This document shows positions 38,958 to 64,000 of a DNA stretch of 64,000 nucleotides, piece after piece. Position numbers and translations under genes: made by a program. Location of the stretch: the NCBI RefSeq assembly GCF_000010525.1, contig NC_009937.1, positions 4,968,501-5,032,500 of the forward strand, read 5' to 3'. The first letter of the stretch is position 1. Each line of letters opens with the position of its first letter. The stretch comes from Azorhizobium caulinodans ORS 571. GTDB lineage: Bacteria; Pseudomonadota; Alphaproteobacteria; Rhizobiales; Xanthobacteraceae. A model generated the notes under the pieces. That model did no database searches. It saw only the letters and a program-made list of their open reading frames with translations, and was not told the DNA's origin.

Positions 38958-39141
38958 AATTTGCCGGTCCATCCACAAAGCGATCCGCTGAAATAGCTCG
39001 CTTCCGGGGCAGCGGGCTTGTACGCCAGCCGGAGTGCAACCGCCCTCGACAACCAGCCGGAATGGGCGGTAACACCGCAAGCATTGTTATCCGGCGAACC
39101 AGAGCATTTCAGTTCGGCCGGCCGGCTCAAGGGTACGTGCC

Positions 39142-44633: not shown

Positions 44634-46049
44634 ATGACACGGTGGACCCATGGCCTGATCAGGCGGCTGGTGATCATCTGCGACCTCGCGATGATCGCCA
44701 TGGCCAGCGCCATCGCCTATGCGGGCTGGCAGCTCGGGCCGCTCAGCCGGCACATCGTCTTCGCCGTCATCGGCGCGCTCGTCTTCGTGCAGGTGCTGCG
44801 GGTGGGCAGTGCCTACCGGGTGGAGCACTACACCCGCCTGCTGCGGCAGATGTCCCATATCGTGATCGGCCTCGTGCCCGCCATGGTCGTCGTCGTGGCG
44901 GTGGATGTGGCCGTGGGCGGATCGCTGAACCGCACCTGGCGCGATCTGCTCGCCTGGGCGATCATCACCTTCATCGCGCTGATGGCCGGGCGGCTCTTCC
45001 TCGTGCGCCCCGGCATGGCGATCGTCAGCCGAAAAGCCCTGCTGCGCCGGCGGATCGCGCTCATCGGTGAGCGGGAGCGGGCGCGGGCCTTCATTGCCAG
45101 GTGCCGCGCGGACGAGGGCAGCGATCTCGTCGAATTCATCGGCATCTTCGAGGCCTCGTCCCAGGCGCCCCGCCCCGATGCCGCCCCGCCCGACGCGGAC
45201 GACCCGCCCCTGCGCGGGGGCGTGGCCGATCTTCTGGCCCTCGCCAAATCCGAGCCGGTGGATCTCGTGGCCATCGTCGAGCCGTGGGACGATGCCCGGC
45301 GCATCAGCGCGCTGGCCGACCAGATGTACCGGATCGCCGCCGATGTGGTGGTGGACCTGGAGCCGGAAGGCTTCATGCTCCATTCCGCCCGCCTCGTGGA
45401 GATCGGCGGGCAGGAAACGCTGCAAGTGCAGCAGCGCCCGCTCAAGGGCTCGCTCGGCCTGCTGAAGACGGTGGAGGATTATGTGGTGGCCGTCATCGGC
45501 ATCATCCTCACCGCGCCCATCCTGCTGGCGGCCGCCATCGCCATCGCCCTCGACTCCCCCGGCCCCGTCCTGTTCCGCCAGCCGCGCGTCGGCCTGAACA
45601 ACAAGATCTTCAACTGCTACAAGCTGCGCACCATGCGCACCGATCCGCAGGACGACGGCTCTGCGGGCACGGTGAAGACCGATCCCCGGATCACCAGGGT
45701 GGGCGCCATCCTGCGGCGCCTGTCCATCGACGAACTGCCGCAGCTCTGGAACGTCCTGCGCGGCGAGATGTCGATTGTGGGGCCGCGTCCGCATGTGCCA
45801 AACATGCGGGTGGCGTCCAACGTGCGCTATGAAGCCGTCGACCGCTATGTGGAGCGCTATCGCGTCAAGCCGGGCATCACCGGCTGGGCCCAGATCAACG
45901 GCATGCGCGGCGGCATCCACACGGTGGAGAAGGCCGAGCAGGGGGTCGAGCTCGACCTCTATTACATCGAGAACTGGTCCATATGGTTCGACATCAGGAT
46001 CATGCTGCTGACCATCACGCGGGGCCTCGCCGGGCCGTCCGTCTTCTGA
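44634..46049 (+). CDS. Undecaprenyl-phosphate sugar phosphotransferase (WcaJ/ExoY-type, long form)
   Basis: 471 residues. Four N-terminal membrane helices, a Rossmann-like central domain ([20 protein letters not shown]), a fifth membrane segment ([25 protein letters not shown]) and the catalytic bacterial sugar-transferase domain: [66 protein letters not shown]. It transfers a hexose-1-phosphate, usually glucose or galactose, to undecaprenyl phosphate, starting exopolysaccharide repeat synthesis. It overlaps the GH18 gene by 67 bases. Confidence 0.92.
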
Positions 46050-48101: not shown

Positions 48102-48106
48102 TCTAG
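47162..48106 (+). CDS. IS481-family transposase
   Basis: 314 residues. N-terminal helix-turn-helix (RITVEGWRTADAAGAAGISVRTAYKWLARF) and second HTH (LSGPAIAHSLGLARSTVGAILRRIG), then an rve/DDE integrase core: IHMDTKKLGRI (first Asp), LMTDNGSAYKS (second Asp) and TPRTNGKAERFIQ (Glu). The stop codon TAG at 48104-48106 lies outside the element, in the duplicated target TCTAGA: the last codon and stop are supplied by the target site. Confidence 0.95.
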   Translation: MNIHKHARMTFHGRVLLAQRITVEGWRTADAAGAAGISVRTAYKWLARFRAGGEAALHDASSAPGRKPRATSGETVAAIEALRRQRLSGPAIAHSLGLARSTVGAILRRIGLSRLAALDEKRPANRYQKAMPGELIHMDTKKLGRIDGIGHRITGDRTRQSNRRGTGWECLHVAIDDASRLAYTEVLPDEKKGTVCAFTARALGWFARHGVVTARLMTDNGSAYKSHDFRDLLRAAGVRHVRTRPYTPRTNGKAERFIQTSLREWAYAVPYTSSRQRTQAMPGWIDTYNLNRPHSAHNGLSPWTRLNNLLGNDI

Positions 48107-48969: not shown

Positions 48970-50323
48970 GCCGTTTTCCAATGATGCGCCGTGGCGCGGT
49001 GCGGATGAAGACGTGCCCCGTCCCCTGGGGCGCCACCGGCCGTCCCGCGCGGTGGCCGAGATAGGCGGCGAGCGCCATCACGGTGGCGAATTCGCCCGGT
49101 GTGAAGACGAGGGAATAGACCGCCGACGTGACGATGAGAAAAAGCACGTAGTCGGCCAGCGCATGGGCAAAGGGATCGCCGTTGCGCCGGGCCAGCCGGC
49201 GCAACTCCACATAGCCCCACACATGCAGGCCGAACAGCATCAGGGCGCCCACGAGCCCATATTCGAACACCACGCCCACCCAGCCGATGTCGGCAATATA
49301 GAACTGCGCGTTGCCGAAGATGTCGGCCAGCGTCACGGTGCTGAAGCGGGTGGTGGCGCCGACGCCGAAGAGCCAGTTCATCACGTCGCTGCCGAGATAG
49401 CCGGTGGCGAGCGCAAAGGAGTTCTGCCGCACCGACAGCGAGCCGCCGAGCCAGGTCTCCACCTTGTCGGCGAAGAGGAGCAGGACGAGGACCGCCACAG
49501 CCGGGACGACGATGGCCGCCGTGGCGGCGAGGATCCGGCGCCAGCGGGCGGGCAGGGAGGCGAGCACGCCCCAGCCCACCACCGCCAGGGCGGCGCCGAT
49601 GGAGGCCCGCTGCTTGTAAATGTAGAACTCGAGCGCAATGCCCACCAGCACGCCCACCGCCGGCCAGAAGGAGGGCCGGCGCATGAAGGTGCGGGTGAGG
49701 AAGAACAGCACGATCACACCGAAGAACATCGGCATGTAGATGCGATAGCCGCGCTCCAGCTCATAGAGCATGAGCTTTCCCTTGGAGGGGTCGCTCGTGT
49801 ACCAGGAGGCGGGCGCCACCATCCACAGCAGCAGCATGGCCCCGAAGGTGCCGTAGCCCAGCGCGAGCACGATGCGTCGCAGCCGTCCAGGCTCCGGATT
49901 GAGCCACACCAGCACGCCGGCCAGCGCGAAATAATAACTGAAAGGCCAGACCTTGACCGTCGTGGTGAGCGCGTCGAACAGGCCGTTGCCGAGCTTGATC
50001 ATGGAGATGAGCGGCGTCAGGCCCATCATGTAGGCCATCAGAGCCACATAGCCGCCCTTCGCCGGCAGCGGCACGCGCGCGATCGCCCAGATGGCGACGG
50101 GCGCCATCAGCACCGGCCATGCCTTGGACAGGATGTAGGGCGGCGGCAGCTCTGCGAGATAATAGAAGCACTGGCCGAACAGCGGCAGCACGACCAGCAG
50201 CACCATCCACGTCATCACCGGCGGGAAGCGCTCGCCGACCAGCGGCGGCGACGTGCTCATCCGCTCCGCGCGATGCAGCGGCATGACCAGCCGCCGCTGC
50301 GCTCCGGGCATCGCGGCGCTCAT
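48938..50323 (-). CDS. O-antigen ligase/Wzy-like polysaccharide polymerase
   Basis: 461 residues with about eleven membrane helices and a large periplasmic loop between about 305 and 370 (VETWLGGSLSVRQNSFALATGYLGSDVMNWLFGVG), as in the Wzy_C/O-antigen ligase superfamily. An arginine-bearing loop (YKQRASIGAALA) could bind the lipid-linked sugar. It starts inside the stop of the WecG-type gene (ATGA). Sequence cannot separate polymerase from ligase; the Wzx/Wza/Wzc-type neighbours argue for polymerase. Confidence 0.8.
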   Translation of the reverse strand: MSAAMPGAQRRLVMPLHRAERMSTSPPLVGERFPPVMTWMVLLVVLPLFGQCFYYLAELPPPYILSKAWPVLMAPVAIWAIARVPLPAKGGYVALMAYMMGLTPLISMIKLGNGLFDALTTTVKVWPFSYYFALAGVLVWLNPEPGRLRRIVLALGYGTFGAMLLLWMVAPASWYTSDPSKGKLMLYELERGYRIYMPMFFGVIVLFFLTRTFMRRPSFWPAVGVLVGIALEFYIYKQRASIGAALAVVGWGVLASLPARWRRILAATAAIVVPAVAVLVLLLFADKVETWLGGSLSVRQNSFALATGYLGSDVMNWLFGVGATTRFSTVTLADIFGNAQFYIADIGWVGVVFEYGLVGALMLFGLHVWGYVELRRLARRNGDPFAHALADYVLFLIVTSAVYSLVFTPGEFATVMALAAYLGHRAGRPVAPQGTGHVFIRTAPRRIIGKRHAATAQATVL

Positions 50324-51138
50324 GGCGCACCCCTTTGCCGGGTCGGGGCCATGCCATAGGCGCCCGGATTCCATTTCGCCTTGGCGACCATCCAGAGTAG
50401 CGGCATGGAGTCGATGAACACCCGCCGGGCATGGCGCACGGGATTACGCAGCAGGCGATAGAGCCACTCGACGCCCAAGGTGCGGAACACCATCGGCGCG
50501 CGCTTCACGAGGCCGGTGAGGAAGTTGAGGGAGCCGCCGACACACAGGCCCGTGCCCACGGCGCCCGCCTGCTGCACCATCCGCGCCAGATATTCCCCGC
50601 GCGGGGAGCCGACGCCGAAGAAGACGTAGCGCGCCGGATGCTGCTGCACGAAGGTGACGCAGGCCTCCGCCTCGCCGGGCTGTTCCATGAACCCCATTGG
50701 CGGATCATAAACCGCCAGCCGCGTGAGGCCGAACCGCTCCACCAGCCGGCGCCGCAACGCCTCCCCGCCACCGATCACCGTGATCGCATCGTCCGGGCGG
50801 ATATGGTCGCGGAACAGGAGTTCAGTCAGGTCGCTGCCGGCACAGTGGGGCAGATCGAGGCCGAAGACCTTGCGGGCAAAGGCGCGCGGCACCTTGCCGT
50901 CCATGAGCCGCAGCCAGGCATGGTCATAGACGTCCTGGAAGCGGGCATCCCGGATCTCGCCCAGAAGGTTGAAATGGGAGGCGTTGGGCGTGACCGCATA
51001 AGCGAAGGGCACGCCGGGTCCGCGTGCGGCGATGAGCGCCGCCGCCTCAGCGGCATCGAGACGGGAGATCGGCACTCCGAGAAAGACCGTCTCGGCCACC
51101 GGCGGCAGCGGACGGGAGATGTCCGTCAGCGGCTCCAT
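50320..51138 (-). CDS. WecG/TagA/CpsF-family glycosyltransferase
   Basis: 272 residues, GT26 family. Conserved blocks: TVFLGVPISRLDAAEAAALI, YAVTPNASHFNLLG, DHAWLRLMDGKVPRAF, GSDLTELLF, ITVIGGGEAL, YVFFGVGSPRGEYLA, GLCVGGSLNFLTGLVKRAP and GVEWLYRLLRNPVRHARR. It adds a sugar, often ManNAcA or a related residue, to the lipid-linked acceptor at the inner face of the membrane. Start at 51138 is a choice; a Met at 51192 is in frame. It lies between the exporter and polymerase genes. Confidence 0.9.
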   Translation of the reverse strand: MEPLTDISRPLPPVAETVFLGVPISRLDAAEAAALIAARGPGVPFAYAVTPNASHFNLLGEIRDARFQDVYDHAWLRLMDGKVPRAFARKVFGLDLPHCAGSDLTELLFRDHIRPDDAITVIGGGEALRRRLVERFGLTRLAVYDPPMGFMEQPGEAEACVTFVQQHPARYVFFGVGSPRGEYLARMVQQAGAVGTGLCVGGSLNFLTGLVKRAPMVFRTLGVEWLYRLLRNPVRHARRVFIDSMPLLWMVAKAKWNPGAYGMAPTRQRGAP

Positions 51139-51248
51139 GTCCTGCTCGCCCGCTCCCTTCGCACAGCCATCGCACACAGGGCGGTATAGCACTGCAACCG
51201 CGCGAATTCAGGTCCGAATATCGCCATTCGCTCTCCGGCGGCGTCCGG

Positions 51249-52232
51249 TCACGGGATGACCGTCGTGCCGCCGGTGGTGTTCGTGGTGTAGCTGCCGAGC
51301 GTGTAGCTGAAGGAACGCTGGAACGGCACCACCTTGTTGATGAACTGGTCGATCCACAGGTCCAGTTCGGCGATGGAGCTGCGCGGCACGTAGATGATGT
51401 CGCCCGCCATCAGCGGCACGTTGCCCTCGTCCCAGGCCGTCTCGATCACGTCGCGCACGTTGACGGTGCGCAGCATGGGCTCGTTGTTCGGGCCGCGGCG
51501 GATGATGGCGATCTGGCCGAGTCTTGCCTCGTCGGTGAAGCCCCCGGCCAGAAGGATGGCCTGCAGGGCGCTCACGCGCATGTCGCTCAGGCGATAGGAG
51601 CCGGGACGCGCCACCATGCCTCCCACGAACACCCGCGCCGACACCGCATCCTCGAGCGCGACGGTCACGCGCTGGTCGGTCAGGTCGTTGCGCGAGGCCC
51701 GGCGCACCGCATCCTGCACGGCAGCGAGGGACATACCCTCCACGCGCATCTGACCGGTGGAGCGCAGGGCGATGGTGCCGTCGGGCGCGACGGTGATGTC
51801 CTCGTCCATGTCGCGGGTGACGAAATACTTCACCTTCAGCTTGTCCCCCGGACCGAGGCGGTACACGGACGGGACATTCGTCCACGGGCGGAAGCCCTGC
51901 GGGTTCACCTGGGAGAAGGAGATGTTCTGGCCGGTCGCAAAGGGCGTCTGGCCGCTCTCGTTGGTGACCGGCGGCGCGCCCGCATAGGCCATGGGCGCGC
52001 TGCCGTCCGGCGGCGCGATTCCCATGGCGGCGCCGGCATAGCTCGCATAGGTCGCCGGGGGCGGAGCGATGGCGGTCTGGGGGGAATTGGTGGAAGTGGT
52101 CGTGCAGCCGGCAAGCGCCAGCCCGGCGGCGAGGAGTGCCGGTCCCATGGTCCACCGGCGGCCGGCGCGCAGCGGGCCGGCACCGGCGGCATGCGTCTCG
52201 ACCTCGGGCGTTCCGCAAAAGGGAACGGACAT
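51249..52232 (-). CDS. Wza-like polysaccharide export outer-membrane lipoprotein
   Basis: 327 residues with a lipobox (ALLAAGLALAGC, Cys about residue 43), a low-complexity Ala/Pro linker, the Poly_export domain (YRLGPGDKLKVKYFVTRDMDEDITVAPDGTIAL) and SLBB domains (VFVGGMVARPGSYRLSDMRVSALQAILLAGGF). A C-terminal region carries IYVPRSSIAELDLWIDQFINKVVPF. Start at 52232 with GAGGAG eight bases upstream. It forms the export channel working with the Wzc/GumC-like protein encoded just before it. Confidence 0.92.
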   Translation of the reverse strand: MSVPFCGTPEVETHAAGAGPLRAGRRWTMGPALLAAGLALAGCTTTSTNSPQTAIAPPPATYASYAGAAMGIAPPDGSAPMAYAGAPPVTNESGQTPFATGQNISFSQVNPQGFRPWTNVPSVYRLGPGDKLKVKYFVTRDMDEDITVAPDGTIALRSTGQMRVEGMSLAAVQDAVRRASRNDLTDQRVTVALEDAVSARVFVGGMVARPGSYRLSDMRVSALQAILLAGGFTDEARLGQIAIIRRGPNNEPMLRTVNVRDVIETAWDEGNVPLMAGDIIYVPRSSIAELDLWIDQFINKVVPFQRSFSYTLGSYTTNTTGGTTVIP

Positions 52233-52380
52233 GGCAGGGCTCCTCACGAAGGATCGGCCCGCCCGGTTACACAGTCGCGATCCGCGCCGCTGGCCGCGGT
52301 ACGGATCGCCAAGCAGGGAATCGCCGGTCCGATCTTGGTAAACCGAACCTAAATCCCCATGGTTAATGAGCGCTTAAGTG

Positions 52381-54498
52381 TCAGGAAATGCGGTAGATCC
52401 AGCCCGGCACGTAATACTTGCGGCCCATGAAGACAAAGCCCATGAGGACGCCGCCGCTCTCGAGCACGTCAGCCCGCAACCGCAGGGCCGCCGCCTTGCG
52501 GGTCTCCTCCGCGCGCACAATCAGGATGTTGGCATCCACAAGCCGGTTGAGGCGGTGCTTCACCGAGGATGCGACCGAAGCGGAGGAAGAGATGATGATG
52601 GCGTCGAACTGGTCCTCCAGTTCCTTCATCATCCGCTGCCCCTCGACCATGGGCAGCCGCACGCTGAGGAGCGGAGAGCGCTCGCTGTCGGCCACAGACC
52701 ATAGCAGCGGCACAGGCGTGCGCGCGATGGTGAGCCCGCCGCGCGCTTCCACGCCGTCATCGGCGCGGTGCGCGCCGGCGGGCTCGGACAGGTCGATGAG
52801 CAAGGTGCGCAGGCCGCGCTGGATGGCGAATTCCTCCGCCAGCCGCTGGCAGAAGACGGGCACATCCGGATGCCGCTCCTGCGACAGGAAATGGAAAGCC
52901 CGCAGCGGCCGCCCATCCAGCTCGGAATCGAGGAGCAGCGTCGCGAGCCCGCCGATGGCGGTTTCCGCCGCCACCGTCTGGAAGGGCGCGCGCCCGTCCG
53001 CGAACTCCGCGAGGGTCGGCAGGCCGAGCAGCCGCTCCACCTCCATGGGGGTGATGAAGCCGGTCCGCAGGGCGGAGGCGATGGCGCCGGCGGCGGCGCC
53101 GAACAGCAGGCCGCCGAACACACCGGCGGCGAGGAACGGCAGGGCCATGCTGCGGCTGGTCACGGCGGCGCCCGCCGCTTCCACCACGCGCACGTTGGAG
53201 GCGCGCACCTTGGAGGCGGTTTCCTCCACATTGGCGGCCACCGCCCGGCGCAGATACTCGCGATAGCCCTCGCTCAGCGTCTCGCGCTGGCGGTTCAGCT
53301 CCGTGAGGCGCGTCTCCACGCCCTGGAGGGTGGCGACGCGTCCCTGCGCCTGCTGCTTCTGCTCGTTGAGCTCGGCCTCCTGCCGGCTCAGGGCGTCCAG
53401 TTCCACGCGCAGGCTCAGCACCATGTTGTTCATGTAGCTGATGGCCGGATTGCGCACGTCGCGGTTGGTCGCATAGAGGCGCGGGTCCGGCGCGCCCATG
53501 GTCTTGCGCACCGTGTCGATCTTCTGCTCGACCTCGCGCACCTGCGGGCTCGAGGGCGTGAACTGGGAGAGCAGGCGGTCGCGCTCCACGAGGAGGCGGG
53601 TCAGGATGTTGCGGTCGTCGTCATTGCCGGAGGCATTGCTCTTCTGGGCGAAGTCGAACACCGTCTCCGGCAGGGCCTGCATCTCCTGCTCGGCCTTTTC
53701 CAGCTGGGCAGCCACCGCGACCTTGCGCTCGGCCACCTGCCGCTGGCGCTGGACGATGCCGTCCACCTGGTTCGCGGCGAGCACCGCGTCCTGGGCGAAG
53801 TCGATGACCCCCGCCTTGCGCTTCAGGCTTTCGATCTCGTTGTCGGTGGCGGTGAGGTCGCGCTTGAAGCGCTCCACCTCGACCATGAGGATGTTGGCGG
53901 TAGGGTTCTCGAAGATCTTGCGGCGATAGGCGAGATAGGCCTTCACCAGCTCATCCGTGGCCTCGATGGCGAGATCCCGGTTGGGGTTCGAGACGCTCAC
54001 CTGGACGATGTTCGAGCCCGACAGCACCGTCGTGCGCATGTTCTTGCGGAAGCGCTCGATGGCCCGGTCCATGGGACTGATCCCGCTCGGCACCAGGTCG
54101 CGCAGGAAGGACAGCCGGCCCGGCGGGAACAGGCGCTCAAGGCCGATCTGGGCGATGGCGTCGCGGATCACGTCCGCGCTTTCGATGATCTGGACCTCGG
54201 ATTCGACCTGCTTCAGGCCCTCGATGGAGAGCACCGAAGGGCCGCTGTCCGTCACGTTCTGGGTCGCCACCTCCCGGTTCACCATCACCAGCAGGAGGCT
54301 GGAGGCGGTGTATTCGGTCTTGGTGACGAGGCAGGCGAAAATGCCGACCAGGATGGGCAGCAGCGCGGCCAGCAGGACGACGCGGCGGTGGAAGAAGGCG
54401 GCGGTCCAGAAATCCCGCATGGTGAAGGCCGCGGACCGGCCTTCGGCCCACGAGGTTGGCGCCTTGTTCTCCAGTTCGCCGGCGTGCCCAGAAATCAT
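52381..54498 (-). CDS. Wzc/GumC-like chain-length protein with degenerate kinase domain
   Basis: 705 residues. Wzz domain: first helix VVLLAALLPILVGIFACLV at about 42-60, periplasmic coiled coils rich in Glu/Arg/Gln (190-420), and a second helix near 460-480 (FLAAGVFGGLLFGAAAGAIASAL). The cytoplasmic tail (about 500-690) follows a tyrosine-kinase-like fold with LLIDLSE and FDAIIISSSAS, but where Walker A (GKS/T) should stand it reads QERHPDVPVFCQRLAEEFA, and no tyrosine cluster ends the protein. So it likely controls chain length without kinase activity. The second of two ATGs fits GAGGAA better. Confidence 0.88.
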   Translation of the reverse strand: MISGHAGELENKAPTSWAEGRSAAFTMRDFWTAAFFHRRVVLLAALLPILVGIFACLVTKTEYTASSLLLVMVNREVATQNVTDSGPSVLSIEGLKQVESEVQIIESADVIRDAIAQIGLERLFPPGRLSFLRDLVPSGISPMDRAIERFRKNMRTTVLSGSNIVQVSVSNPNRDLAIEATDELVKAYLAYRRKIFENPTANILMVEVERFKRDLTATDNEIESLKRKAGVIDFAQDAVLAANQVDGIVQRQRQVAERKVAVAAQLEKAEQEMQALPETVFDFAQKSNASGNDDDRNILTRLLVERDRLLSQFTPSSPQVREVEQKIDTVRKTMGAPDPRLYATNRDVRNPAISYMNNMVLSLRVELDALSRQEAELNEQKQQAQGRVATLQGVETRLTELNRQRETLSEGYREYLRRAVAANVEETASKVRASNVRVVEAAGAAVTSRSMALPFLAAGVFGGLLFGAAAGAIASALRTGFITPMEVERLLGLPTLAEFADGRAPFQTVAAETAIGGLATLLLDSELDGRPLRAFHFLSQERHPDVPVFCQRLAEEFAIQRGLRTLLIDLSEPAGAHRADDGVEARGGLTIARTPVPLLWSVADSERSPLLSVRLPMVEGQRMMKELEDQFDAIIISSSASVASSVKHRLNRLVDANILIVRAEETRKAAALRLRADVLESGGVLMGFVFMGRKYYVPGWIYRIS

Positions 54499-54638
54499 CA
54501 TCTTCCTCGGTCTTCGTGGACGCGATACCGCGAGCCGCGATCAAACCCTTCCGGTCCGGCCCCTGCCCCGACGCCCGTACCCCCACGCGAGACAAGCCGA
54601 AAAACCTTAACAAGCCGGCCTTGTCCGGCGCCGCCCTC

Positions 54639-55925
54639 TCAGACCGCGCGCGGCAGAAGACGCCGCGCCGCGAGCGTGGTGCCGATGGCGCCCTGCGCGA
54701 TGAAGAGCGCCGTCAGGGCCGCAGCCCCCATCATACCATAGAGGGGGATGAGAACCGCCCCGAGCAGGCAGCAGGTGGCGAGCTGGCCCGCATTGAGCCA
54801 GCGCAGGACGCCGCCGTGGCCGGTCATGGCCAGCAGGATGTCCTGGCAGGGCAGCAGGCAGTTCACCAACTGGCCGACGCTCATGACCAGCAGCGCCGGC
54901 CGCGCCATCTCGAAGCCGGGGCCGATGAGATGCAGCAGGAAGGTGGGAAAGAGCATCATCGCCGCGATCACCGGCAGGCCGCACAGCCCCACCACCAGCC
55001 GCACGCGCCGGTTCAGCGCCCGCAGGCGATCCCAGGCGCCGATCCGGTGCAGGCTGGCGAAGTTCGGGGCCGCGATGGTGCCGATGGACAGAATGACCAC
55101 CCAGATCAGCATGGAGATGCGGCTCGCCACACTGAAGGCGCCGACATCCGAGGGCGGCGCGAAGACGCCGAGCACCAGCACCGGAATGGAGTTCAGCGAA
55201 ACCTGCACCACCTCCACCATGCCGAGCGGGAAGGCCGTCCGCCACAGGGGCGGCAGGGCATCCGGCGCCTGCGCTTCGTCCTCGGACGGCGGCGTGTGGC
55301 GGTGGGTCAGGATCAGCGCAACACCGCAGGCGGTGGACGCCGCATTGGCGAAGGCGAGCGCCAGCAGCATGCCATCCAGTGACTGGACTCCGGCCGCCAC
55401 GGTGGCGAGCGTGATGACCGGCCACAGCCCGTTCTGCACGAACTGGCTGGCCACGCCCCGGTTGAGGCCGGAGAGGCCGTGCCCGATGACGATGCACAGG
55501 GTCTGCGGGAGGATCACCGCTGCCGACAGAGCGAGGGACGGGCCAAGCTCCGGCTGGCCGAACACATGGGTGGAGAGCGGCTGGGCGAGCAGCAGGGTGA
55601 ACAGCGTGGCCAGTGCCCCGCCCGCGAAAGCGCTGGCGACGCCGCCGAATAGCGCCCGATGCGCCTCCGCGACGCGGCCAAGGGCCAGTTCCGCCGCCAT
55701 GTGGCGCATGATCGCCTTCTCGAACCCGCCGCGGGCGAGTGTGGAGATGAGGCCCACCCATGTGATGCACAGGAAGAAGAGGCCGGCATCGTGCGCGCCC
55801 AGCACACGCGCCGCCAGCATGTAGAGGCCCAGCTTTCCAACAAGCTCAAGCCCGCGTACCACAAGCGCGGCGGCATAGGCCCAGTGCGAGAGGGCCAGCC
55901 GCAGAAGGGATCGAAGAGCCATCAT
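54639..55925 (-). CDS. Wzx-like polysaccharide flippase
   Basis: 428 residues, about twelve membrane helices. The first two (LVVRGLELVGKLGLYMLAARVLGAHDAGLFFLCITWVGLISTLARGGFEKAIMRHMA) match the polysaccharide_synt/MATE-like flippase fold. It would move the undecaprenyl-linked repeat to the periplasm. It is first of the minus-strand exopolysaccharide genes, and its start (55925 or 55922) has no good ribosome site. About 65 bases separate it from a divergent secreted-protein gene. Confidence 0.87.
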   Translation of the reverse strand: MMALRSLLRLALSHWAYAAALVVRGLELVGKLGLYMLAARVLGAHDAGLFFLCITWVGLISTLARGGFEKAIMRHMAAELALGRVAEAHRALFGGVASAFAGGALATLFTLLLAQPLSTHVFGQPELGPSLALSAAVILPQTLCIVIGHGLSGLNRGVASQFVQNGLWPVITLATVAAGVQSLDGMLLALAFANAASTACGVALILTHRHTPPSEDEAQAPDALPPLWRTAFPLGMVEVVQVSLNSIPVLVLGVFAPPSDVGAFSVASRISMLIWVVILSIGTIAAPNFASLHRIGAWDRLRALNRRVRLVVGLCGLPVIAAMMLFPTFLLHLIGPGFEMARPALLVMSVGQLVNCLLPCQDILLAMTGHGGVLRWLNAGQLATCCLLGAVLIPLYGMMGAAALTALFIAQGAIGTTLAARRLLPRAV

Positions 55926-55992: not shown

Positions 55993-56418
55993 ATGAAACA
56001 TGCGCTCGCGAAAGTCGCAAGCGCCTTGGCCGGCGGTGCCCTTCTGGCCGCAAGCCTCGCGGAACCCGCCGGCGCCCAGTTGCAGGGCATGCCCCGCAGC
56101 GATCTGCCGGCACAGGGCAGCACCGATCCGGAGATCGACCCCTTTCCGTTCGATCCGCGCCTCGAGATCCGCAGCTACGTTGCAAGCCGCCTGCCGACCG
56201 AATGGTGGGCCAAGGAGCCGATCTACAATCTCGGCCTCTTCTCCGTGGAGATTCATCCGCCCGCCGCATGGCGGGGCAATCCGACCTCGGCCATGATGCG
56301 CCTGTGTCCTCCGGCCCGGCATGAAATCTGGCGGCACCTGCAGAAGATCGAGCTGCGCCCTTTTTATCACGACGCCCCCTGGCCTGCCTTCACCTGCCGC
56401 CCCGGAACGGTGCCCTAA
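55993..56418 (+). CDS. Secreted hypothetical protein, 141 aa
   Basis: A signal peptide (KHALAKVASALAGGALLAASLAEPAGAQ) precedes a mature region of about 113 residues with no domain I recognise: aromatic/proline-rich, with DPFPFDPRLEIRSYVASRLP, EWWAKEPIYNLGLFSVEIHPP and two cysteines (MRLCPPARHEIW and FTCRPGTVP) that may form a disulfide. GGGGGCAGG precedes the ATG. Lies between the flippase and the carrier-protein operon; may belong to the polysaccharide locus. Confidence 0.65.
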   Translation: MKHALAKVASALAGGALLAASLAEPAGAQLQGMPRSDLPAQGSTDPEIDPFPFDPRLEIRSYVASRLPTEWWAKEPIYNLGLFSVEIHPPAAWRGNPTSAMMRLCPPARHEIWRHLQKIELRPFYHDAPWPAFTCRPGTVP

Positions 56419-56588: not shown

Positions 56589-56855
56589 GTGACCGATCAG
56601 GCAATCGAGAACCAGCTGCGCGAGATCCTCAAGGTGCAGGGCAAGGTGGCCGTCGCCGCTGCCGCCATCGGGCCGGACGACGACCTCTACGGCCTCGGCC
56701 TCTCCTCGCTCGCCACCGTCAATGTGATGCTGGAAATCGAGGCCCGGTTCGACATCGCCTTTCCGGACGATGCCCTCACCCGTGCGACCTTCCAGACGCT
56801 GGGCGGGCTCGCGGCGCTGGTCCGCCGGCAGCTCGGCGCGGCCGCAGCGGCATGA
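56589..56855 (+). CDS. Acyl/aminoacyl carrier protein
   Basis: 88 residues, GTG start with GAGGAGG nine bases upstream. Four-helix carrier fold with the phosphopantetheine site in DDLYGLGLSSLATVNVML (Ser40, followed by Leu). Its acidic helix II (EIEARFDIAFPDDAL) is normal for carriers. The next genes encode an acyl-CoA-dehydrogenase-like protein and an amino acid:[carrier protein] ligase, so the cargo is probably an aminoacyl group rather than a fatty acid. Overlaps the following gene (ATGA). Confidence 0.93.
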   Translation: MTDQAIENQLREILKVQGKVAVAAAAIGPDDDLYGLGLSSLATVNVMLEIEARFDIAFPDDALTRATFQTLGGLAALVRRQLGAAAAA

Positions 56856-58042
56856 CCGGCGCCCTCGACCTCGCCCCGCGGGCCGAGGCGCCCGATCGCG
56901 AACTTTGGGCGCAGGTCTGCGAGACGGCCCGCACCCACGCCGCCGCCGTCGATCAGGAGGGCCGCTACCCCGCGGAGGCCGTGGCGGCGCTGAAGGCCTC
57001 CGGCGCGCTCGGCTGCGCCGTGCCACCGGCACTCGGCGGCGCGGGAACCGGCATGGCGACGCTGGCGCGAATGGCCTGCGAGCTCGGGGCGGCCTGCGCC
57101 TCCACCGCCATGGTCTTCGCCATGCACCACAACCAGCTCGCCTGCCTCGTCCGGCATGCGGGCGACAATGCGTGGCTGCGCGACTTCACCGCCGCCGTGG
57201 CAGCGCAGGGCCTGCTGCTCGCCTCCGTCACGTCCGAGGAGGGCATTGGCGGGCGCCTGCGCACCAGCCGCTGCGCCGTCGAGCCGGCCGGCGAAGGGCG
57301 CTTCCGGCTGGAGAAGCAGGGCTCGACCGTGTCCTACGGCGCCGAGGCCGACGCCTTCCTCCTGACGGCCCGCAAGGACGCCGAGGCGGATGCCTCCGAT
57401 CAGGTGCTCGTGGTGCTGCCGCGCGCCGGGGCGACCGTCGAGCCCTATCGTGGCTGGAATGCGCTGGGCCTGCGCGGCACCGGCAGCGGCGGCTTCCGCA
57501 TCAGCGGCACGGGCGACCGGGCACAGGTTCTGGACGTCCCTTTCGGCGAGATCGCGCAACAGACCATGGTGCCCAATGCCCACATCCTGTGGGGCGCGGT
57601 CTGGCTCGGCATTGCAACCGACGTGCTGGCCCGCTGCCGCGCCTTCCTGCGCACGCGGATGCGCAGCGGCTCGTCTGCGGCCGAGCGCGGCCTGCCGACG
57701 CTCGCGCGCATGCACGGGCACCTCCAGGACATGGAGGCCGCCCTCGCTCGCGCCATCACCGTGTATGACGGACAGCGGGCAGATCCGGGCGCGCTGGAGG
57801 CGATCCTGCTCAAGACGCGGCTCTCCGACACCGCGCTCACCGTGGCCGACATGGGCATGCGCCTGTGTGGCTTCACCGCCTATAGCAACGAGGGGCCCTA
57901 CAGCCTGAGCCGCCATCTGCGCGACCTCTATGCGGCGCCCCTGATGATCAACAATGACGCCATCCTCGCCGACGCCGGGCGGCTGCTGCTGGTGAACCGC
58001 ACCGCCTTCGGCGCCTTCGACGCAGAACAGGACCTGCCATGA
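56852..58042 (+). CDS. Acyl-CoA-dehydrogenase-like flavoprotein
   Basis: 396 residues. N-terminal helical domain, FAD-binding middle strand region (LLASVTSEEGIGGRLRTSRC), and C-terminal helical domain ending GFTAYSNEGPYSLSRHLRDLYAAPLMINNDAI, the equivalent of the terminal GGxGY...R..RDA signature with a candidate Glu in SNEGP. In this operon the substrate may be the carrier-bound aminoacyl group: alpha,beta-oxidation or imine formation are possible, as for prolyl-carrier oxidases. Overlaps the genes on both sides by 4 bases. Confidence 0.88.
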   Translation: MTGALDLAPRAEAPDRELWAQVCETARTHAAAVDQEGRYPAEAVAALKASGALGCAVPPALGGAGTGMATLARMACELGAACASTAMVFAMHHNQLACLVRHAGDNAWLRDFTAAVAAQGLLLASVTSEEGIGGRLRTSRCAVEPAGEGRFRLEKQGSTVSYGAEADAFLLTARKDAEADASDQVLVVLPRAGATVEPYRGWNALGLRGTGSGGFRISGTGDRAQVLDVPFGEIAQQTMVPNAHILWGAVWLGIATDVLARCRAFLRTRMRSGSSAAERGLPTLARMHGHLQDMEAALARAITVYDGQRADPGALEAILLKTRLSDTALTVADMGMRLCGFTAYSNEGPYSLSRHLRDLYAAPLMINNDAILADAGRLLLVNRTAFGAFDAEQDLP

Positions 58043-58974
58043 GCCGCGTGGAACTGGCCTTTCCCGTAAGTTCGGCCGCCGCCTTCCGGGCCGAGCTGAT
58101 CGCCGCCGGCCTGCTGATCCCCACCGGCGTCGATGGCCTCTACGGCCGCGGCGCCGCCTACGAGACCGTGGCGGACGCGCTCGAAGCCGCCATCACGCGC
58201 CTTGCGGCGGCCGATGCGCCCGAGCGGATGCGCTTTCCTCCGGTCATGTCGCGGCAGGAGTTCATCGCCAGCGGCTATCTCAAGGGCTTTCCCCATCTCG
58301 CCGGCACGGTGAACTGCTTCTGCGGCAATGAGGCGGACCACCGCCGCATGCTGGCCTGCATCGAGGCCGGAGAGGACTGGGACGATCTCCAGCAGCCCTC
58401 CGAAGTCGTGGTGACGCCGGCCGCCTGCTATCCGGTCTATCCGGTCGTCGCCGCACAGGGCCCTCTGGCCGAGGCCGGACGGCTGGTGGACGTCTCCTCC
58501 TACTGCTTCCGGCACGAGCCCTCCGTGGACCCCTGCCGCATGCAGATGTTCCGCATGCGCGAACTGGTCCGCATCGGCAGCGAGGCCCAGGTGCTGGCCT
58601 TCCGCGATGGATGGATGGCCCGCGCCAGTCGCTGGCTGGAAACGCTCGGCCTGCCCTCCGCGACCGCGCCGGCGAGCGACCCCTTCTTCGGGCGCGGCGG
58701 CAAGATCATGGCCGCCGGGCAGATGGAGCAGTTGCTCAAGTTCGAGCTGCTGGTGCCGGTGGGCAGCACCAGCGAGCCCACCGCCTGCATCAGCTGCAAC
58801 TATCACATGACGCATTTCTCGGAGATCTGGCCCCTGAGGGACGCCGCCGGCGGAATGGTGCGCAGCGGATGCGTGGCCTTCGGCATCGAGCGGCTGACGC
58901 TGGCGCTGTTTCGGCATCACGGCTTCGATGCCCGGCTCTGGCCGGCCGGGGTCCGGGCCGAACTGTTCGTCTGA
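58039..58974 (+). CDS. Amino acid:[carrier protein] ligase (truncated seryl-tRNA-synthetase-like)
   Basis: 311 residues: a class II synthetase catalytic core without a tRNA-binding arm. Motif 2 is FRHEPSVDP (158-165) and motif 3 GCVAFGIERLTLALFRHHG. Cys130, Glu175 and Cys278 fall at the positions of the three zinc ligands of the Bradyrhizobium enzyme Bll0957 (as I recall, 131, 176, 279). Members adenylate glycine or alanine and load it on the phosphopantetheine of a carrier encoded next to them, as here. The amino acid cannot be chosen from sequence alone. Confidence 0.92.
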   Translation: MSRVELAFPVSSAAAFRAELIAAGLLIPTGVDGLYGRGAAYETVADALEAAITRLAAADAPERMRFPPVMSRQEFIASGYLKGFPHLAGTVNCFCGNEADHRRMLACIEAGEDWDDLQQPSEVVVTPAACYPVYPVVAAQGPLAEAGRLVDVSSYCFRHEPSVDPCRMQMFRMRELVRIGSEAQVLAFRDGWMARASRWLETLGLPSATAPASDPFFGRGGKIMAAGQMEQLLKFELLVPVGSTSEPTACISCNYHMTHFSEIWPLRDAAGGMVRSGCVAFGIERLTLALFRHHGFDARLWPAGVRAELFV

Positions 58975-58991
58975 CGGCGGCCGCCCCCACC

Positions 58992-60749
58992 ATGCTTCCC
59001 ATCAGCTTCGACGGTTGCGCCGGCTGGCTGCACCTGCCGGCGGAGGGACGGGCGCGCGGGCGCGGCGTGATCATCTGCGAAAGCTTCGGCTATGAGGCCC
59101 TGAGCACCCAGCGCGCCACGCTGGTGCTCGCCCGCACGTGCGCCGAAGCCGGGCTGCCGACGCTGAGCTTCCATTATCCGGGAACGGGGGATTCCGCAGG
59201 GGAAGAAACGCCGGGCCAGATCGAGCGCTGGATCGCCAGCATCGGCGCGGCGGCGGCTTTCCTCAAGGCGCAGACCGGCCTTGAGGATATCGCCCTGTGC
59301 GGACTGCGCCTTGGCGGGCTGCTAGCGATCGAGGCGGCGCAGACGTTCGGCGGCATCTCCGCCCTGGCGCTCCTCGCGCCCGTCCTGTCGGGAAAGACCT
59401 ACGCCCGTGAGCTTCTGCTCAGCGGCTCGATGGTGCCCTCACGCGAGGGCAGCCTGCCGCCCGGCTGGCGGGAGTTCCTCGGCTATCGGCTGCACAATGA
59501 TGATCTCGCACGGCTGCGGATTCTGGACGGCGAGGCCCGGCTCGGCAGCCTTTCCCATGTGCGGGTGCGGATCGCTTCCCCAGCCGCCCGGCCCGCGGCG
59601 CTCCCCGCGGACATCGCGTGGGGGCCCTTCCAGCACCATGACGGCCTGGCGCAGCATGCGCAGGATCTGATGCTTCCGCTGTGCGCCTTCCGCGAGACGG
59701 CGGCATGGCTCGCCGAGGGAGCGGCAGGCGCGGCGGTTCCACCAGTTCCGCCGGCCCGAGAGGCGCTGGAGGTCGCGCCGGGTCTTCAGGAGCTCGTGCT
59801 GCGGCTCGGGCCCGGCGGCCGGGCGCTCGGCATCCTCACACGCCCCGCGCATGTGAAGGCCGACTGGGGAGCGGTGATCCTAAATTCCGGCCTCAATCAC
59901 CACACCGGCAATGGCCGCAGCGGCGTGCGGCTGGCCCGGCGGCTGGCGGCCCAGGGTGTGCCGACCCTGCGGCTCGACCTCGACAAGATCGGAGATTGCG
60001 CACCGGCCGACCCCGACGAAACCGTCGGCTTCCATGATCTCGGCCGCGTGGAGGATGTCCGCGCCGCCGTGGACCAACTGGTGCAGCAGGGCAGCAGCCG
60101 GGTGCTGCTCACCGGCATCTGCGCCGGCGCCTATATCGGCCTTCATGCGGCGGCGAACGATCCCCGCATTCGGGCCGCGGTGCTCGTCAATCTCCCCTAT
60201 TTCTACATTCGCGACGAGGACCCGGCCATTCCGCTCTGGCGCCGCCCGCTCCGGCTGGCGGTGCGCCTCGCAGACAGGACGCGCCGCTGGCGCGCCGCCC
60301 TCCTCTGGAACCGGAATCCGGAGTTCGGCCCCGCCTTCTTCCGGCGCCGCTATGTGACGCAGCGGGTGCTGCTGCTCTGGCATTATGCCCTTCTGTCCGT
60401 GAGCTGCCGCCTCAAGGGCACGCTCCGGCGCTTCCTTCCCGCGCTTCAGCCGGGCGCCCGCGCCCGCCGCCTGCTACAGGCGCTGGTCGCCCACGGCACG
60501 GCCCTCACGCTGGTCTACGGCACGCAGGATTGGGGTCTGGTGGAGCTCGGCATCCTCTTTCCCGACCACCAGCGGGATCTGGTCGATGCCGGATATGCCG
60601 ACCTGCGCTTCATCGAGAATGCGGATCACACGCTCACCAACGCGTGGATGTTCGATGCCTATGCGCGCATCCTCGAGGAGATGCTCGGCCTACCCCCCGA
60701 GGCGCCGGAGGCTGGCAGCCGACAGGCGAGCGAAGAACATCCGGCGTAA
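58992..60749 (+). CDS. Double alpha/beta-hydrolase, second domain with Cys nucleophile
   Basis: 585 residues in two alpha/beta-hydrolase units. Domain 1 (1-250) has GRGVIICESFGYEAL, FHYPGTGDSAG and the elbow ALCGLRLGG, where Arg106 replaces the nucleophile, so it is probably inactive. Domain 2 (about 262-565) has LNSGLNHHTGNGRSG, LRLDLDKIGD, elbow TGICAGAY (Cys377), YGTQDWG (Asp513) and NADHTLTN (His546), a full Cys-Asp-His triad. The resemblance is to exosortase-associated hydrolases and, in its Cys nucleophile, to aminoacyl-shuttling enzymes such as SyrC and CmaE. It ends the carrier-protein operon, 17 bases after the ligase. Confidence 0.8.
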   Translation: MLPISFDGCAGWLHLPAEGRARGRGVIICESFGYEALSTQRATLVLARTCAEAGLPTLSFHYPGTGDSAGEETPGQIERWIASIGAAAAFLKAQTGLEDIALCGLRLGGLLAIEAAQTFGGISALALLAPVLSGKTYARELLLSGSMVPSREGSLPPGWREFLGYRLHNDDLARLRILDGEARLGSLSHVRVRIASPAARPAALPADIAWGPFQHHDGLAQHAQDLMLPLCAFRETAAWLAEGAAGAAVPPVPPAREALEVAPGLQELVLRLGPGGRALGILTRPAHVKADWGAVILNSGLNHHTGNGRSGVRLARRLAAQGVPTLRLDLDKIGDCAPADPDETVGFHDLGRVEDVRAAVDQLVQQGSSRVLLTGICAGAYIGLHAAANDPRIRAAVLVNLPYFYIRDEDPAIPLWRRPLRLAVRLADRTRRWRAALLWNRNPEFGPAFFRRRYVTQRVLLLWHYALLSVSCRLKGTLRRFLPALQPGARARRLLQALVAHGTALTLVYGTQDWGLVELGILFPDHQRDLVDAGYADLRFIENADHTLTNAWMFDAYARILEEMLGLPPEAPEAGSRQASEEHPA

Positions 60750-60999: not shown

Positions 61000-61057
61000 G
61001 CAGCCTATCTAAGCGCATCGCCAGCACGCGCCATGGTGGGCTCGTATGGAGGGTGAA

Positions 61058-64000
61058 GTGCGTCGTCTATCGATCGCGTTGTTTTCGTCTACTTTTCTTT
61101 TGCCGGCTTACGCCCTGGCGCAGCAGGTTCCCACCTCTCCGCCCGTCAACTTCGTCAACAGCACGACTCCCGCGACCGGCACCACGCTGACCAAGGTGCT
61201 CGACGCCTACACTGATCTGATGGTCAACCATCCCGAAGTGATGGTGAAGAACTATCAGACCGTGGTCTCCATGACGCAGAACCGCACGGCGGCGCAGACG
61301 GAAGCAGCGATCCGCGCAGACCGGACCTCGCAGGCCTACAACGTGATGAACGGCCTCGGTCCGCTGACGAATTTCTACCTGACGGGCGCCGGCGCCTCCA
61401 CCTCGGGCACCGCGCCCCAGAGCCTGACCCCGACCACTTATGTCACCGGCACGCTCGCGGACTACCAGCGCGACATCAACTATCTCAGCAATGCCAGCGC
61501 CGGCTCCCAGACCTTCGGCAATGGCACGAAGACGCCGCTCGCCTCGGCGGTGAACTTCATCGACAACATCGCCCGCGCCAACGCCTCGACCGAGCCGGCC
61601 AAGCGCACGTTCGACCGCTATCAGGGCGCGACCCCGGCCATCAATCCGCTGGACTCCCGCTACCAGAACTACAGCGCCGCCACCAAGACGGGCCTCACCA
61701 CCGCCGATACCGCAAGCTTCGTGGTGCCGGGCTATCTCTCGCAGTTCACCGTGCCGGCGGCTTACGGCACCGTCGACAACTGGGTGAAGGGCTTCACCGT
61801 CACGGCGGCCATGGTGGCGGCCAATGGCGGCCAGCCCATCAGCGTGCCGAACGTCGGCAGCTATGACGCGGCCGGCAACTTCACGCCCACCCTGTTCAAT
61901 GTGGGCGACTACGTGCCGGGCATCGGCACCTCCCCGCGTCCGTTCCGCGTCACCAGCGCCGTGAACATCCCGACGCTGCTCTACCAGCGCATCAACGGCA
62001 CCAATCCCTATGCGGACGGCGGCTTCCCGAGCGGCCATACCAATTCGGGCTATCTCCAGTCCTACGCCGTCGCCTTCCTCGTGCCGCAGCGCGGCCAGGA
62101 AATGCTGATGGCGGCCTCGGAGCTCGGCAACAACCGCATCCTCGCCGGCATGCACTCGCCGCTCGACGTGATCGGCGGCCGCATGGAATCGAGCGCCATC
62201 GTCGCCACCAACATCTACGGCGCGCTCTATGATTCCACCGGCAACCGCCTCGACTGGACCAATCCGGCCAATGCCTCGGCCTATGCGGTCTATCAGGCCT
62301 ATAACGACACCCAGAACTATCTCGCCGCCTCCTGCAATGCGGTGAGCGTACAGGCCTGCATCCAGCAGGCGCAGGCGGCAGGCTTCGGCGCGACCGATCC
62401 GCTCGCCTATTCGGCCGCCAACAAGGCGCTCTATACGGCCCGGCTCACCTATGGCCTGCCGGTCATCGGCCCGGTGAAGGCCATGACGGCGGCGGACGTG
62501 CCCGTTCAGGCCCAGGTGCTGCTGCTGACCCGCTTCCCCTATCTGAGCGACGCGCAGCGCACCGAGATCCTCGCCACCACCGCGCTGCCCTCCGGCTATG
62601 CCCAGCTGAGCGGCAACACCTATGATGGCTGGGGCCAGCTCAACCTCTACGCCGCCTTCGACGGCTATGGCGCGTTCAACAGCCAGGTGAACGTGACCAT
62701 GGACGCGAGCCTCGGCGGCTACAACGCGGCCGACGCCTGGCGCAACGACATCACCGGCACCGGCGGCCTCACCAAGGGCGGTACGGGCCAGCTCACCCTC
62801 TCCGGCAACAACACCTACACCGGCCCCACCGTCATCAATGGCGGCTACCTGATCGTGAACGGCTCCATCGTCTCGCCGACCACGGTCAACTCCGGCGGCA
62901 CGCTGGGCGGCACCGGTCGGGTCGGCAACGTGACCGTGAACGGCGGCGGCACGCTCATGCCGGGCACGCTCGGCAGCGCCGGCACACTCACCGTCAACGG
63001 CAACCTCGCCATGGCGGCCAATTCCAAGCTCCTCATCACCGCCACCCCCACGGCCACGAGCAACGTGCAGGTGAACGGCACCGCCACCCTTCAGGGCGGC
63101 ACGGTACAGGTGGGCGCCACCGGCACCTTCCTGCCCTTCACCCAGGTGGCGCTCATCAGCGCCACCGGCGGCGTGAACGGCCAGTTCGCCGGCGTCACCA
63201 CGAGCGGCTCGAACCTGACGTCCGCTCTGTCCTATGACGCCAAGACCGTGACGCTGACCATGAACCGCACGGACGTGAACTACGCTACCGTCGCGGCCAC
63301 GGCCAATCAGCGCAGCGTCGGCGCCGCCCTCAACGCGGCGGCGCCCTCTGCGGCCACCGCCGCGGCCGGAACGCTCGTCAACGGCGTCTTCCTGAGCAAC
63401 CAGGCGTCCGCCGGCCTTGGCCAGGCGGCTCTCGACAGCGTCAGCGGCGCGGGTCTGACCGCCAGCCAGGGCGCGGCCCTCCAGGCCACCTCCGCCTTCA
63501 CCTCCAACATCCAGGACCAGCAGGACACCTGGTTCACCTACGGCCGCACCGCGCCGGCAGCGTCCGCGTCGTCCCCGGCGCTGAACTATGCCGCCGCGCC
63601 GAAGACCAAGTTCCCGCCCGTGAAGGCGGTGCCGGCGCCCGCGCCGGAACAGCGCTGGAACGTGTGGGGCGGCGCCTTCGGCAGCACCACCAGCATCGAC
63701 AGCGCGCCCGGTCTCACCGGCCAGAGCAGCACCACCTGGGGCGGCCTCGTCGGTCTCGACTATCGCGTGCAGCCGGACTGGCTGGTGGGCATCGCGCTCG
63801 GCGGCTCCACCTCACAGTTCAGCACCACGAGCCTCAACACATCGGGCACGGTGGATGGCGCGCACATCTCGCTCTACACCACCTATGCCCTGCCGTCGGA
63901 CAGCTATGTGCGCGGCGTCTTCACCTTCAGCGGCTTCTCCAATGATGTGAAGCGCGTCGCCGGCGGCGTCGGCGCGTTGGCGGCCGAGAACGAGAAGGGC
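61058..64000 (+). CDS. PAP2-phosphatase autotransporter (partial, runs off the window)
   Basis: 981 codons are open to the window end. The GTG at 61058 has GGAGG 5 bases upstream; an ATG at 61046 is the alternative. Signal peptide RRLSIALFSSTFLLPAYALAQ. Passenger: PAP2/vanadium-haloperoxidase motifs GTSPRPF, PSGHT (324-328) and NRILAGMHSPLD (Arg360, His366, Asp370). An autotransporter-associated repeat follows (about 567-620; GGLTKGGTGQLTLSGNNTYTG), then a linker rich in Ala/Pro and the start of the beta-barrel (WNVWGGAFGSTTSI; WGGLVGLDYRVQPDWLVGIALGG). The likely role is a cell-surface acid phosphatase. Confidence 0.9.
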   Translation, partial: MRRLSIALFSSTFLLPAYALAQQVPTSPPVNFVNSTTPATGTTLTKVLDAYTDLMVNHPEVMVKNYQTVVSMTQNRTAAQTEAAIRADRTSQAYNVMNGLGPLTNFYLTGAGASTSGTAPQSLTPTTYVTGTLADYQRDINYLSNASAGSQTFGNGTKTPLASAVNFIDNIARANASTEPAKRTFDRYQGATPAINPLDSRYQNYSAATKTGLTTADTASFVVPGYLSQFTVPAAYGTVDNWVKGFTVTAAMVAANGGQPISVPNVGSYDAAGNFTPTLFNVGDYVPGIGTSPRPFRVTSAVNIPTLLYQRINGTNPYADGGFPSGHTNSGYLQSYAVAFLVPQRGQEMLMAASELGNNRILAGMHSPLDVIGGRMESSAIVATNIYGALYDSTGNRLDWTNPANASAYAVYQAYNDTQNYLAASCNAVSVQACIQQAQAAGFGATDPLAYSAANKALYTARLTYGLPVIGPVKAMTAADVPVQAQVLLLTRFPYLSDAQRTEILATTALPSGYAQLSGNTYDGWGQLNLYAAFDGYGAFNSQVNVTMDASLGGYNAADAWRNDITGTGGLTKGGTGQLTLSGNNTYTGPTVINGGYLIVNGSIVSPTTVNSGGTLGGTGRVGNVTVNGGGTLMPGTLGSAGTLTVNGNLAMAANSKLLITATPTATSNVQVNGTATLQGGTVQVGATGTFLPFTQVALISATGGVNGQFAGVTTSGSNLTSALSYDAKTVTLTMNRTDVNYATVAATANQRSVGAALNAAAPSAATAAAGTLVNGVFLSNQASAGLGQAALDSVSGAGLTASQGAALQATSAFTSNIQDQQDTWFTYGRTAPAASASSPALNYAAAPKTKFPPVKAVPAPAPEQRWNVWGGAFGSTTSIDSAPGLTGQSSTTWGGLVGLDYRVQPDWLVGIALGGSTSQFSTTSLNTSGTVDGAHISLYTTYALPSDSYVRGVFTFSGFSNDVKRVAGGVGALAAENEKG

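Follow-up and report, generated by a model that had tools for sequence, protein, structure and literature searches.

A four-gene operon was analyzed in a 64,000-nucleotide stretch of the genome of Azorhizobium caulinodans ORS 571 (NC_009937.1, positions 4,968,501 to 5,032,500 of the forward strand; hereafter the window), a nitrogen-fixing, nodulating soil bacterium. The operon encodes a carrier protein, a flavoprotein, an amino acid:[carrier protein] (aa:CP) ligase and a double alpha/beta-hydrolase, and judged by its sequence it appears to be a real, intact-looking and reduced variant of a known, unsolved aminoacyl-carrier system. The reading preferred here, held tentatively and at somewhat under an even chance, is that it is a reduced form (type III below) of a rhizobial aminoacyl-carrier system that would load a small amino acid, oxidize it and pass it to an acceptor, for which a surface-polysaccharide sugar is the likeliest candidate. 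Of the new points, the most useful are the complete co-occurrence, within the sample used, of the hydrolase with the ligase type that bears DUF1839, the kinship of the hydrolase with exosortase-A hydrolases, and the atypical active site of the flavoprotein. The four genes are listed below.

56589..56855, + strand: carrier protein, phosphopantetheine site S40 in GLSSL, GTG start (NF005480, PF00550)
56852..58042, + strand: flavoprotein of the acyl-CoA dehydrogenase fold, A243 and I366 at the usual catalytic Glu positions (PF02771)
58039..58974, + strand: aa:CP ligase, class II aminoacyl-tRNA synthetase (aaRS)-like, C130/E175/C278 (NF005479, PDB 4h2w/3mey)
58992..60749, + strand: double alpha/beta-hydrolase, N-domain Arg106 at the nucleophile elbow, C-domain Cys377 with conserved Asp545-His546 (TIGR03101/TIGR03100 below cut-off, alignments, AlphaFold2 (AF2) model)

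All four open reading frames (ORFs) were intact on the + strand, and the GTG start of the carrier gene was preceded by AGGAGG 9 bases upstream. An earlier note on this DNA had described the genes as tightly coupled, and the ORF coordinates gave exactly the spacing that it reported: a 4-base overlap, a second 4-base overlap and then a 17-base gap between ligase and hydrolase. Its view of the operon as a minimal, free-standing aminoacyl-carrier pathway is likewise supported, no nonribosomal peptide synthetase or polyketide synthase module being present in the operon. The carrier and ligase identities that it proposed also held, both proteins scoring above curated family cut-offs: the carrier reached 83.7 bits with NF005480 (cut-off 72) and matched PF00550 at 1.3e-10, and the ligase reached 476 bits with NF005479 (cut-off 357). 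The carrier matched the Agrobacterium aminoacyl carrier Atu2571 (2jq4, 4h2w_C), and S40 was identical in 23/23 aligned carriers of its own cluster (type II carriers, defined below, left out). The ligase, the sole match to its family in the genome, aligned to Bll0957 (PDB 3mey, 4h2w) at E values of 2e-83 to 3e-82; its 311 residues, of which 22-307 align to 3mey/4h2w, make up the catalytic core only, with no tRNA-binding domain. C130, E175 and C278, at positions which we take to be the zinc ligands of Bll0957, were identical in all ligases aligned (42/42, from 42 of the 44 loci collected), in agreement with the claim that all three zinc ligands are kept. By analogy, the ligase would activate a small amino acid (Gly or Ala) with ATP and load it onto the phosphopantetheine of its dedicated carrier.

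Gene order was compared across 44 ligase loci, a non-random selection made up of the window, 40 fetched stretches (including the A. oxalatiphilum locus, L065, from genome G002) and L013-L015. Conserved linkage, which the earlier note had set beforehand as a test of its proposal, was found: the flavoprotein adjoined the ligase in 42/44 loci, and a carrier gene lay within ~2.2 kb of it, again in 42/44. Three architectures were distinguished. Type I (n=28), defined by DUF1839, has the order carrier, flavoprotein, ligase, DUF1839, followed by a GH2-like protein in 27/28, and a double hydrolase lies at most 12 kb away in 19/28. In type II (n=11), which we read as Bradyrhizobium-like (family f1, genus g24), the carrier, where found, is divergent (10/11). 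Type III (n=5, window included) has the hydrolase behind the ligase, is without DUF1839 and shows no GH2-like gene. In the ligase tree the window, A. oxalatiphilum and L013 formed one clade (100/98) and L075 and L080 another. Type II differs from the window both in forming a separate clade (100/100) and in having no hydrolase nearby (11/11); the notion that all aa:CP loci constitute one system was rejected on that clade and on its other partners. Short-chain dehydrogenase/reductase (SDR) and AMP-ligase genes were seen in 7/11 type II loci (L069, L070, L071, L078, L101, L103, L104), which seemingly represent a different pathway that uses the same ligase; L103 has in addition an extra carrier gene (12674-12952) and a Wzx-like gene (6303-7670).

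Set against type I, the window has carrier, flavoprotein and ligase in order on one strand and a double hydrolase in its genome, and has no DUF1839 or GH2-like gene behind the ligase. DUF1839 was not found anywhere in the genome with the same model that found it in 64 relatives, nor was a GH2-like protein, with a query for which there was no positive control. A. oxalatiphilum keeps the same reduced gene set in the same order, its ligase being 72% identical to that of the window (L013: 68%).

Co-occurrence was scored in 397 genomes drawn evenly from the order, with the ligase called above its family cut-off and the hydrolase searched for with the window's protein as query (E 1e-8, at most 3 candidates scored per genome). 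The ligase was present in 88 genomes (95 at E 0.001), and the double hydrolase in 66 of these 88 and in 0/309 others (Fisher 1.5e-56, not corrected for phylogeny); by this uncorrected test, the linkage of ligase and hydrolase is far beyond chance. DUF1839 was found in 64/88 ligase genomes, within 3 kb of the ligase in 64/64, and all 64 also have the hydrolase. The two hydrolase genomes without DUF1839 are that of the window and G666, the latter with two separate half-length hydrolase matches far from the ligase, and 22/88 ligase genomes have neither DUF1839 nor hydrolase. The hydrolase lay within 20 kb of the ligase in 51/66 genomes. Counted by genus, the ligase occurred in 35/142 (E 0.001), the hydrolase in 26/142 and DUF1839 in 24/142. 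Since many relatives keep the hydrolase, a long-unexplained enzyme family becomes easier to test, and should the hydrolase regularly accompany one branch and accept the aminoacyl group, the standing question about these ligases could be tested directly.

The N-terminal half of the hydrolase matched TIGR03101 at 87.8 bits (cut-off 202.75) and the C-terminal half TIGR03100 at 82.8 bits (cut-off 168.45), both below cut-off. In the AF2 model (predicted local distance difference test (pLDDT) 83) both halves are alpha/beta-hydrolase-like, and Cys377 follows strand 370-376 and precedes helix 378-389, which is the position of a nucleophile elbow. This position is Cys in 21/24 aligned rows, with 2 gaps and 1 Thr (L080, where the reading frame seems to be lost); Asp545 and His546 occur in 20/24 rows (4 gaps), and Asp513 is kept in 18/24 (4 gaps, 1 Lys, 1 Glu). 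The elbow position of the N-terminal half is Arg in 12/24, Gly in 11/24 and a gap in 1/24 (R106 in the window), so that half is without an ordinary nucleophile, and the Cys-type nucleophile is confined to the C-terminal domain. The suggestion that a Cys-type domain acts as an acyl transferase stays plausible, narrowed to that domain. In such a step Cys377 would accept the acyl group as a thioester and hand it to the acceptor, which is most likely a surface-polysaccharide sugar or one in the lipid-linked precursor. The papain-like DUF1839 and the GH2-like protein would be involved too in most relatives; in this Azorhizobium neither was found, and the hydrolase gene comes directly after that of the ligase. 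Fusions in which the hydrolase stands behind a Wzx-like flippase were seen at L068:15372-18698, L084:1456-4767 and L085:1317-4628, all in genus g58.

The flavoprotein matched Acyl-CoA_dh_N (PF02771) at 6e-14. Foldseek placed its AF2 model (pLDDT 89.5) closest to flavin mononucleotide (FMN)-bound DszC, with dehydrogenases immediately after; sequence profiles favored dehydrogenases, the best PDB match being 7p98, a cyclohexene-carboxyl-CoA dehydrogenase. At the two positions which we take to carry the catalytic base of acyl-CoA dehydrogenases, the residue was Ile or Val at the C-terminal one (41/41 aligned flavoproteins; I366 in the window) and Ser, Ala, Thr or Cys at the alternative one in helix G (41/41; A243 in the window). 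The Glu that marks a classical acyl-CoA dehydrogenase is thus missing from both, which makes ordinary alpha,beta-dehydrogenation less likely. The stretch W-x-x-[LI]-G-[LM]-R-x-T-x-S-G is common to DszC, TdsC and the flavoprotein (compared using the L013 protein) and reads W-N-A-L-G-L-R-G-T-G-S-G in the window. The flavoprotein shares its fold with acyl-CoA dehydrogenases and with the FMN monooxygenases DszC and TdsC, and this stretch with the latter two; it differs from all of them in having only ~20% identity and a substrate that is presumably an aminoacyl-carrier. A role as monooxygenase or oxidase is favored, and that of an ordinary dehydrogenase is set aside as less likely on account of the missing glutamates. 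Of the proposed oxidation by an acyl-CoA-dehydrogenase-like enzyme, the fold and family were borne out, with the ordinary form of the reaction less likely. The enzyme would oxidize the carrier-bound aminoacyl group, more probably as a monooxygenase or an amine/alpha-carbon oxidase than as an alpha,beta-dehydrogenase.

Kinship of the hydrolase with exosortase-A (XrtA) hydrolases 2 and 1 (TIGR03101 and TIGR03100, models of the type 'hypothetical equivalog') was assessed at four loci with a TIGR03100 member above cut-off. L107 and L108 matched the halves of the window hydrolase, and L109 and L110 gave no match. At L107 and L108 hydrolase 2 precedes hydrolase 1, as in the window fusion, and the Cys is kept. 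Membership in the exosortase-A group was judged by hydrolase and TIGR03098 (ligase_PEP_1) scores, exosortase genes themselves not being searched for; TIGR03098 exceeded its cut-off of 592.35 in 4/4 TIGR03100 genomes and in 0/25 aa:CP genomes, the best match in the window's genome reaching 220 bits. At one of the two matching loci (as L120:5235-9954), a contiguous group is formed by ligase_PEP_1 (opposite strand), a carrier-like gene that scores 27 bits and passes no cut-off, hydrolase 2, hydrolase 1 and an acyltransferase; a polysaccharide sugar transferase gene lies 3 kb away. The XrtA loci thus share with the window the hydrolase order and the Cys/Arg motifs and, at L120, a carrier-like gene, an AMP-forming loader and a polysaccharide context; the window differs in having the hydrolases as one protein, an aaRS-like loader and an added flavoprotein. 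Ligase_PEP_1-like genes were also seen far from the aa:CP ligase on the same chromosome contig (G621, G055, G482) or on another contig (G588), so both module types may coexist. The main text of the 2006 exosortase paper (PMC1569441) does not contain the terms hydrolase, acyl-CoA ligase, carrier protein, AMP-dependent or decarboxylase. In Burkholderia cenocepacia the TIGR03100-type hydrolase Bcam1334 lies within a biofilm exopolysaccharide cluster, and a polysaccharide-processing role is suggested in the accessible part of that report (PMC3584217). A broader idea, which we regard as rather unlikely, is that of a general carrier-borne module for decorating surface polysaccharides in two forms, one exosortase-A (ANL-type ligase, carrier, hydrolase 2 and hydrolase 1) and one rhizobial (with an aaRS-like ligase, a carrier, a flavoprotein and the fused hydrolase). 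In either form the Cys-type domain, assisted by a partner domain that lacks a nucleophile, would take an acyl or oxidized aminoacyl group off the carrier and place it on a lipid-linked sugar at the flippase step. Should the hydrolase indeed be a constant partner that takes an aminoacyl group, a chemical function would be suggested for the exosortase-A hydrolases as well.

Much of the proposed function was put forward in 2010, in a note in proofs of a paper that we take to be by Iyer et al. In the accessible part of that paper (PMC2922099), which treats seryl-tRNA-synthetase paralogues, the ligases are linked to genes for a carrier, a redox enzyme, Atu2574, a glycosidase and liposaccharide biosynthesis; an amino acid is proposed to become attached to a sugar derivative of the cell surface, with modification by the redox enzyme, probably by monooxygenation, and the uncharacterized Atu2574 is named as the amide-forming enzyme. 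From gene order we infer that Atu2574 is the DUF1839 protein. DUF1839 is described as papain-like, with a C(T/S)H triad, and as possibly glycan-processing in the available portion of PMC10318531. The window has in common with the 2010 pathway the ligase, carrier, redox enzyme, polysaccharide context and general function proposed; it differs in its alpha/beta-hydrolase, none being named in the accessible part of PMC2922099, and in that no relative of Atu2574 was found in its genome. Because the function was proposed for an Agrobacterium-type operon, the window is a variant of a known, unsolved system, and the sugar-ligation idea is already published for a related operon. With the Bradyrhizobium and Agrobacterium systems (Bll0957; Atu2571 carrier and Atu2573 ligase) the window shares ligase family and carrier type, and with the former also an acyl-CoA-dehydrogenase-like gene alongside (bll0958, by number); it differs in being without DUF1839-type and GH2-like genes and in having the double hydrolase directly behind the ligase. 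In the part available, a 2024 study of the PhaR regulator has bll0957 and the dehydrogenase gene bll0958 in one table (PMC10888616), and a review of 2022 describes what attaching the amino acid is for as still unknown (PMC9437257). No later functional study of these ligases in rhizobia was found in the open-access literature (some search terms were perhaps too narrow), and no mention of the double hydrolase as a ligase partner was found in the literature searched, some of it accessible in part. As far as searched, four points are new. The hydrolase constantly accompanies the ligase of the DUF1839 type, it is related to exosortase-A hydrolases 2 and 1, in one genus it is joined to a Wzx-like flippase, and the flavoprotein has Glu at neither of the usual catalytic positions.

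The exopolysaccharide locus reported beside the operon is genuine, as shown by the following Pfam assignments.

44634..46049, + strand: bacterial sugar transferase, WcaJ type (PF02397, 2.5e-67)
50320-51192, - strand: WecG/TagA, polysaccharide export/assembly (PF03808)
51249-52247, - strand: Wza-like (Poly_export), polysaccharide export/assembly (PF02563)
52381-54501, - strand: weak Wzc-like match (PF02706, 20.8 bits, below the cut-off of 25.5)
54639-55925, - strand: Wzx, polysaccharide export/assembly (PF01943)

The genes at 50320..55925 (-) run divergent from the operon (+). Hidden Markov models (HMMs), built in part on seeds from the ligase loci themselves (the flippase fusion and the Wzx of L103 among them) and in part on single window proteins, detected polysaccharide-type genes at 17/28 type I, 5/11 type II and 1/5 type III loci and in 0/4 control stretches (window 1-20000, window 20001-40000 and two A. 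oxalatiphilum flanks); since seeds came from the same loci, the comparison of 17/28 with 5/11 is partly circular. A PF02397 sugar transferase lay ~7 kb from the ligase in at least 11 genomes of one genus among the matches listed (read by eye). PF02563 and PF02397 were both present in 80/80 genomes examined, out of the 88 ligase-positive ones, so their presence alone is uninformative. For the polysaccharide acceptor that the earlier note held possible, such genes near part of the relatives' loci speak in favor, and the A. oxalatiphilum operon speaks against it: no polysaccharide gene was detected there in the 60 kb searched (contig 57-117 kb, ligase at ~87 kb).

Several observations weigh against the preferred reading. 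The A. oxalatiphilum result weakens a functional tie between the window's polysaccharide locus and the operon, and the link in Azorhizobium rests on one genome, the window being the only type III locus of five to show such genes. The seeded HMMs detected no polysaccharide-type genes near 11/28 type I loci and did detect them at 5/11 type II loci, which are without a hydrolase nearby. The accessible part of PMC6801904 describes the A. caulinodans exopolysaccharide as a pyruvylated galactan and mentions no amino acid in it. Among type III loci, L075 and L080 gave no detectable flavoprotein, and L013 is a 4.4-kb contig of a metagenome-assembled genome that follows the window's gene order up to its end inside the hydrolase. 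In 15/66 genomes (several of them drafts) hydrolase and ligase were >50 kb apart or on separate contigs, and the co-occurrence statistic ignores phylogeny. The dehydrogenase 7p98 has Thr at the C-terminal Glu position, so loss of that Glu alone is compatible with dehydrogenation. Near-cut-off TIGR03098 scores among the 25 aa:CP genomes (G621 589, G055 579, G482 558, G588 549) likewise lower confidence slightly.

The product could instead be a diffusible small molecule or a modified amino acid in free form, with the hydrolase as a releasing thioesterase and the polysaccharide locus as a chance neighbor. We consider this unlikely, at roughly three chances in ten: the isolation of the A. oxalatiphilum operon from detectable polysaccharide genes and the divergent orientation in the window both speak for it, as do the SDR and AMP-ligase genes of 7/11 type II loci and the extra carrier of L103, which recall small-molecule pathways, whereas the Wzx-hydrolase fusions of one genus, the polysaccharide-type genes near type I loci (17/28, partly circular), the PF02397 transferase ~7 kb from the ligase in at least 11 genomes of one genus among the matches listed, and homology to hydrolases of exosortase-A-type loci fit a polysaccharide better. 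Improbable at about one chance in five is that the hydrolase is a mere proofreading thioesterase that clears misloaded carrier, transfer being left to DUF1839 in most relatives and, in Azorhizobium, to a factor encoded elsewhere. DUF1839 would suit that part: the available portion of PMC10318531 gives it a papain-like C(T/S)H triad and suggests glycans as its target, it lies within 3 kb of the ligase in 64/64 genomes, and it probably corresponds to the protein named as amide-forming (Atu2574) in the available portion of PMC2922099. The hydrolase, for its part, is often not adjacent to the ligase; yet the window's genome, where DUF1839 was not detected, keeps the hydrolase and keeps it next to the ligase, and a Cys nucleophile and a flippase fusion fit transfer better than editing. 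That the operon is the decaying remainder of a full system which has lost DUF1839 and the GH2-like protein is very improbable. Neither was found in the genome (the GH2 search being without a positive control), as decay would predict, but the four frames are intact with catalytic residues kept, and the same set and order recur in A. oxalatiphilum and, to the contig end, in L013.

Promoter and terminator scans of the window gave signals no more than in shuffled sequence. An IS481-type transposase gene lies within the polysaccharide region (47162-48106, +). Between the polysaccharide genes and the operon, 55993-56418 (+) encodes a small protein with a signal-peptide-like start, for which no Pfam match was obtained and a search of the other loci gave no relative at E 1e-6. 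Downstream of the operon, 61046-64000 (+) encodes a large exported protein that continues past the window end; its N-terminal part carries a PSGH...G.H motif, presumably acid-phosphatase-like, and is followed by passenger repeats and then by the apparent start of an autotransporter barrel.

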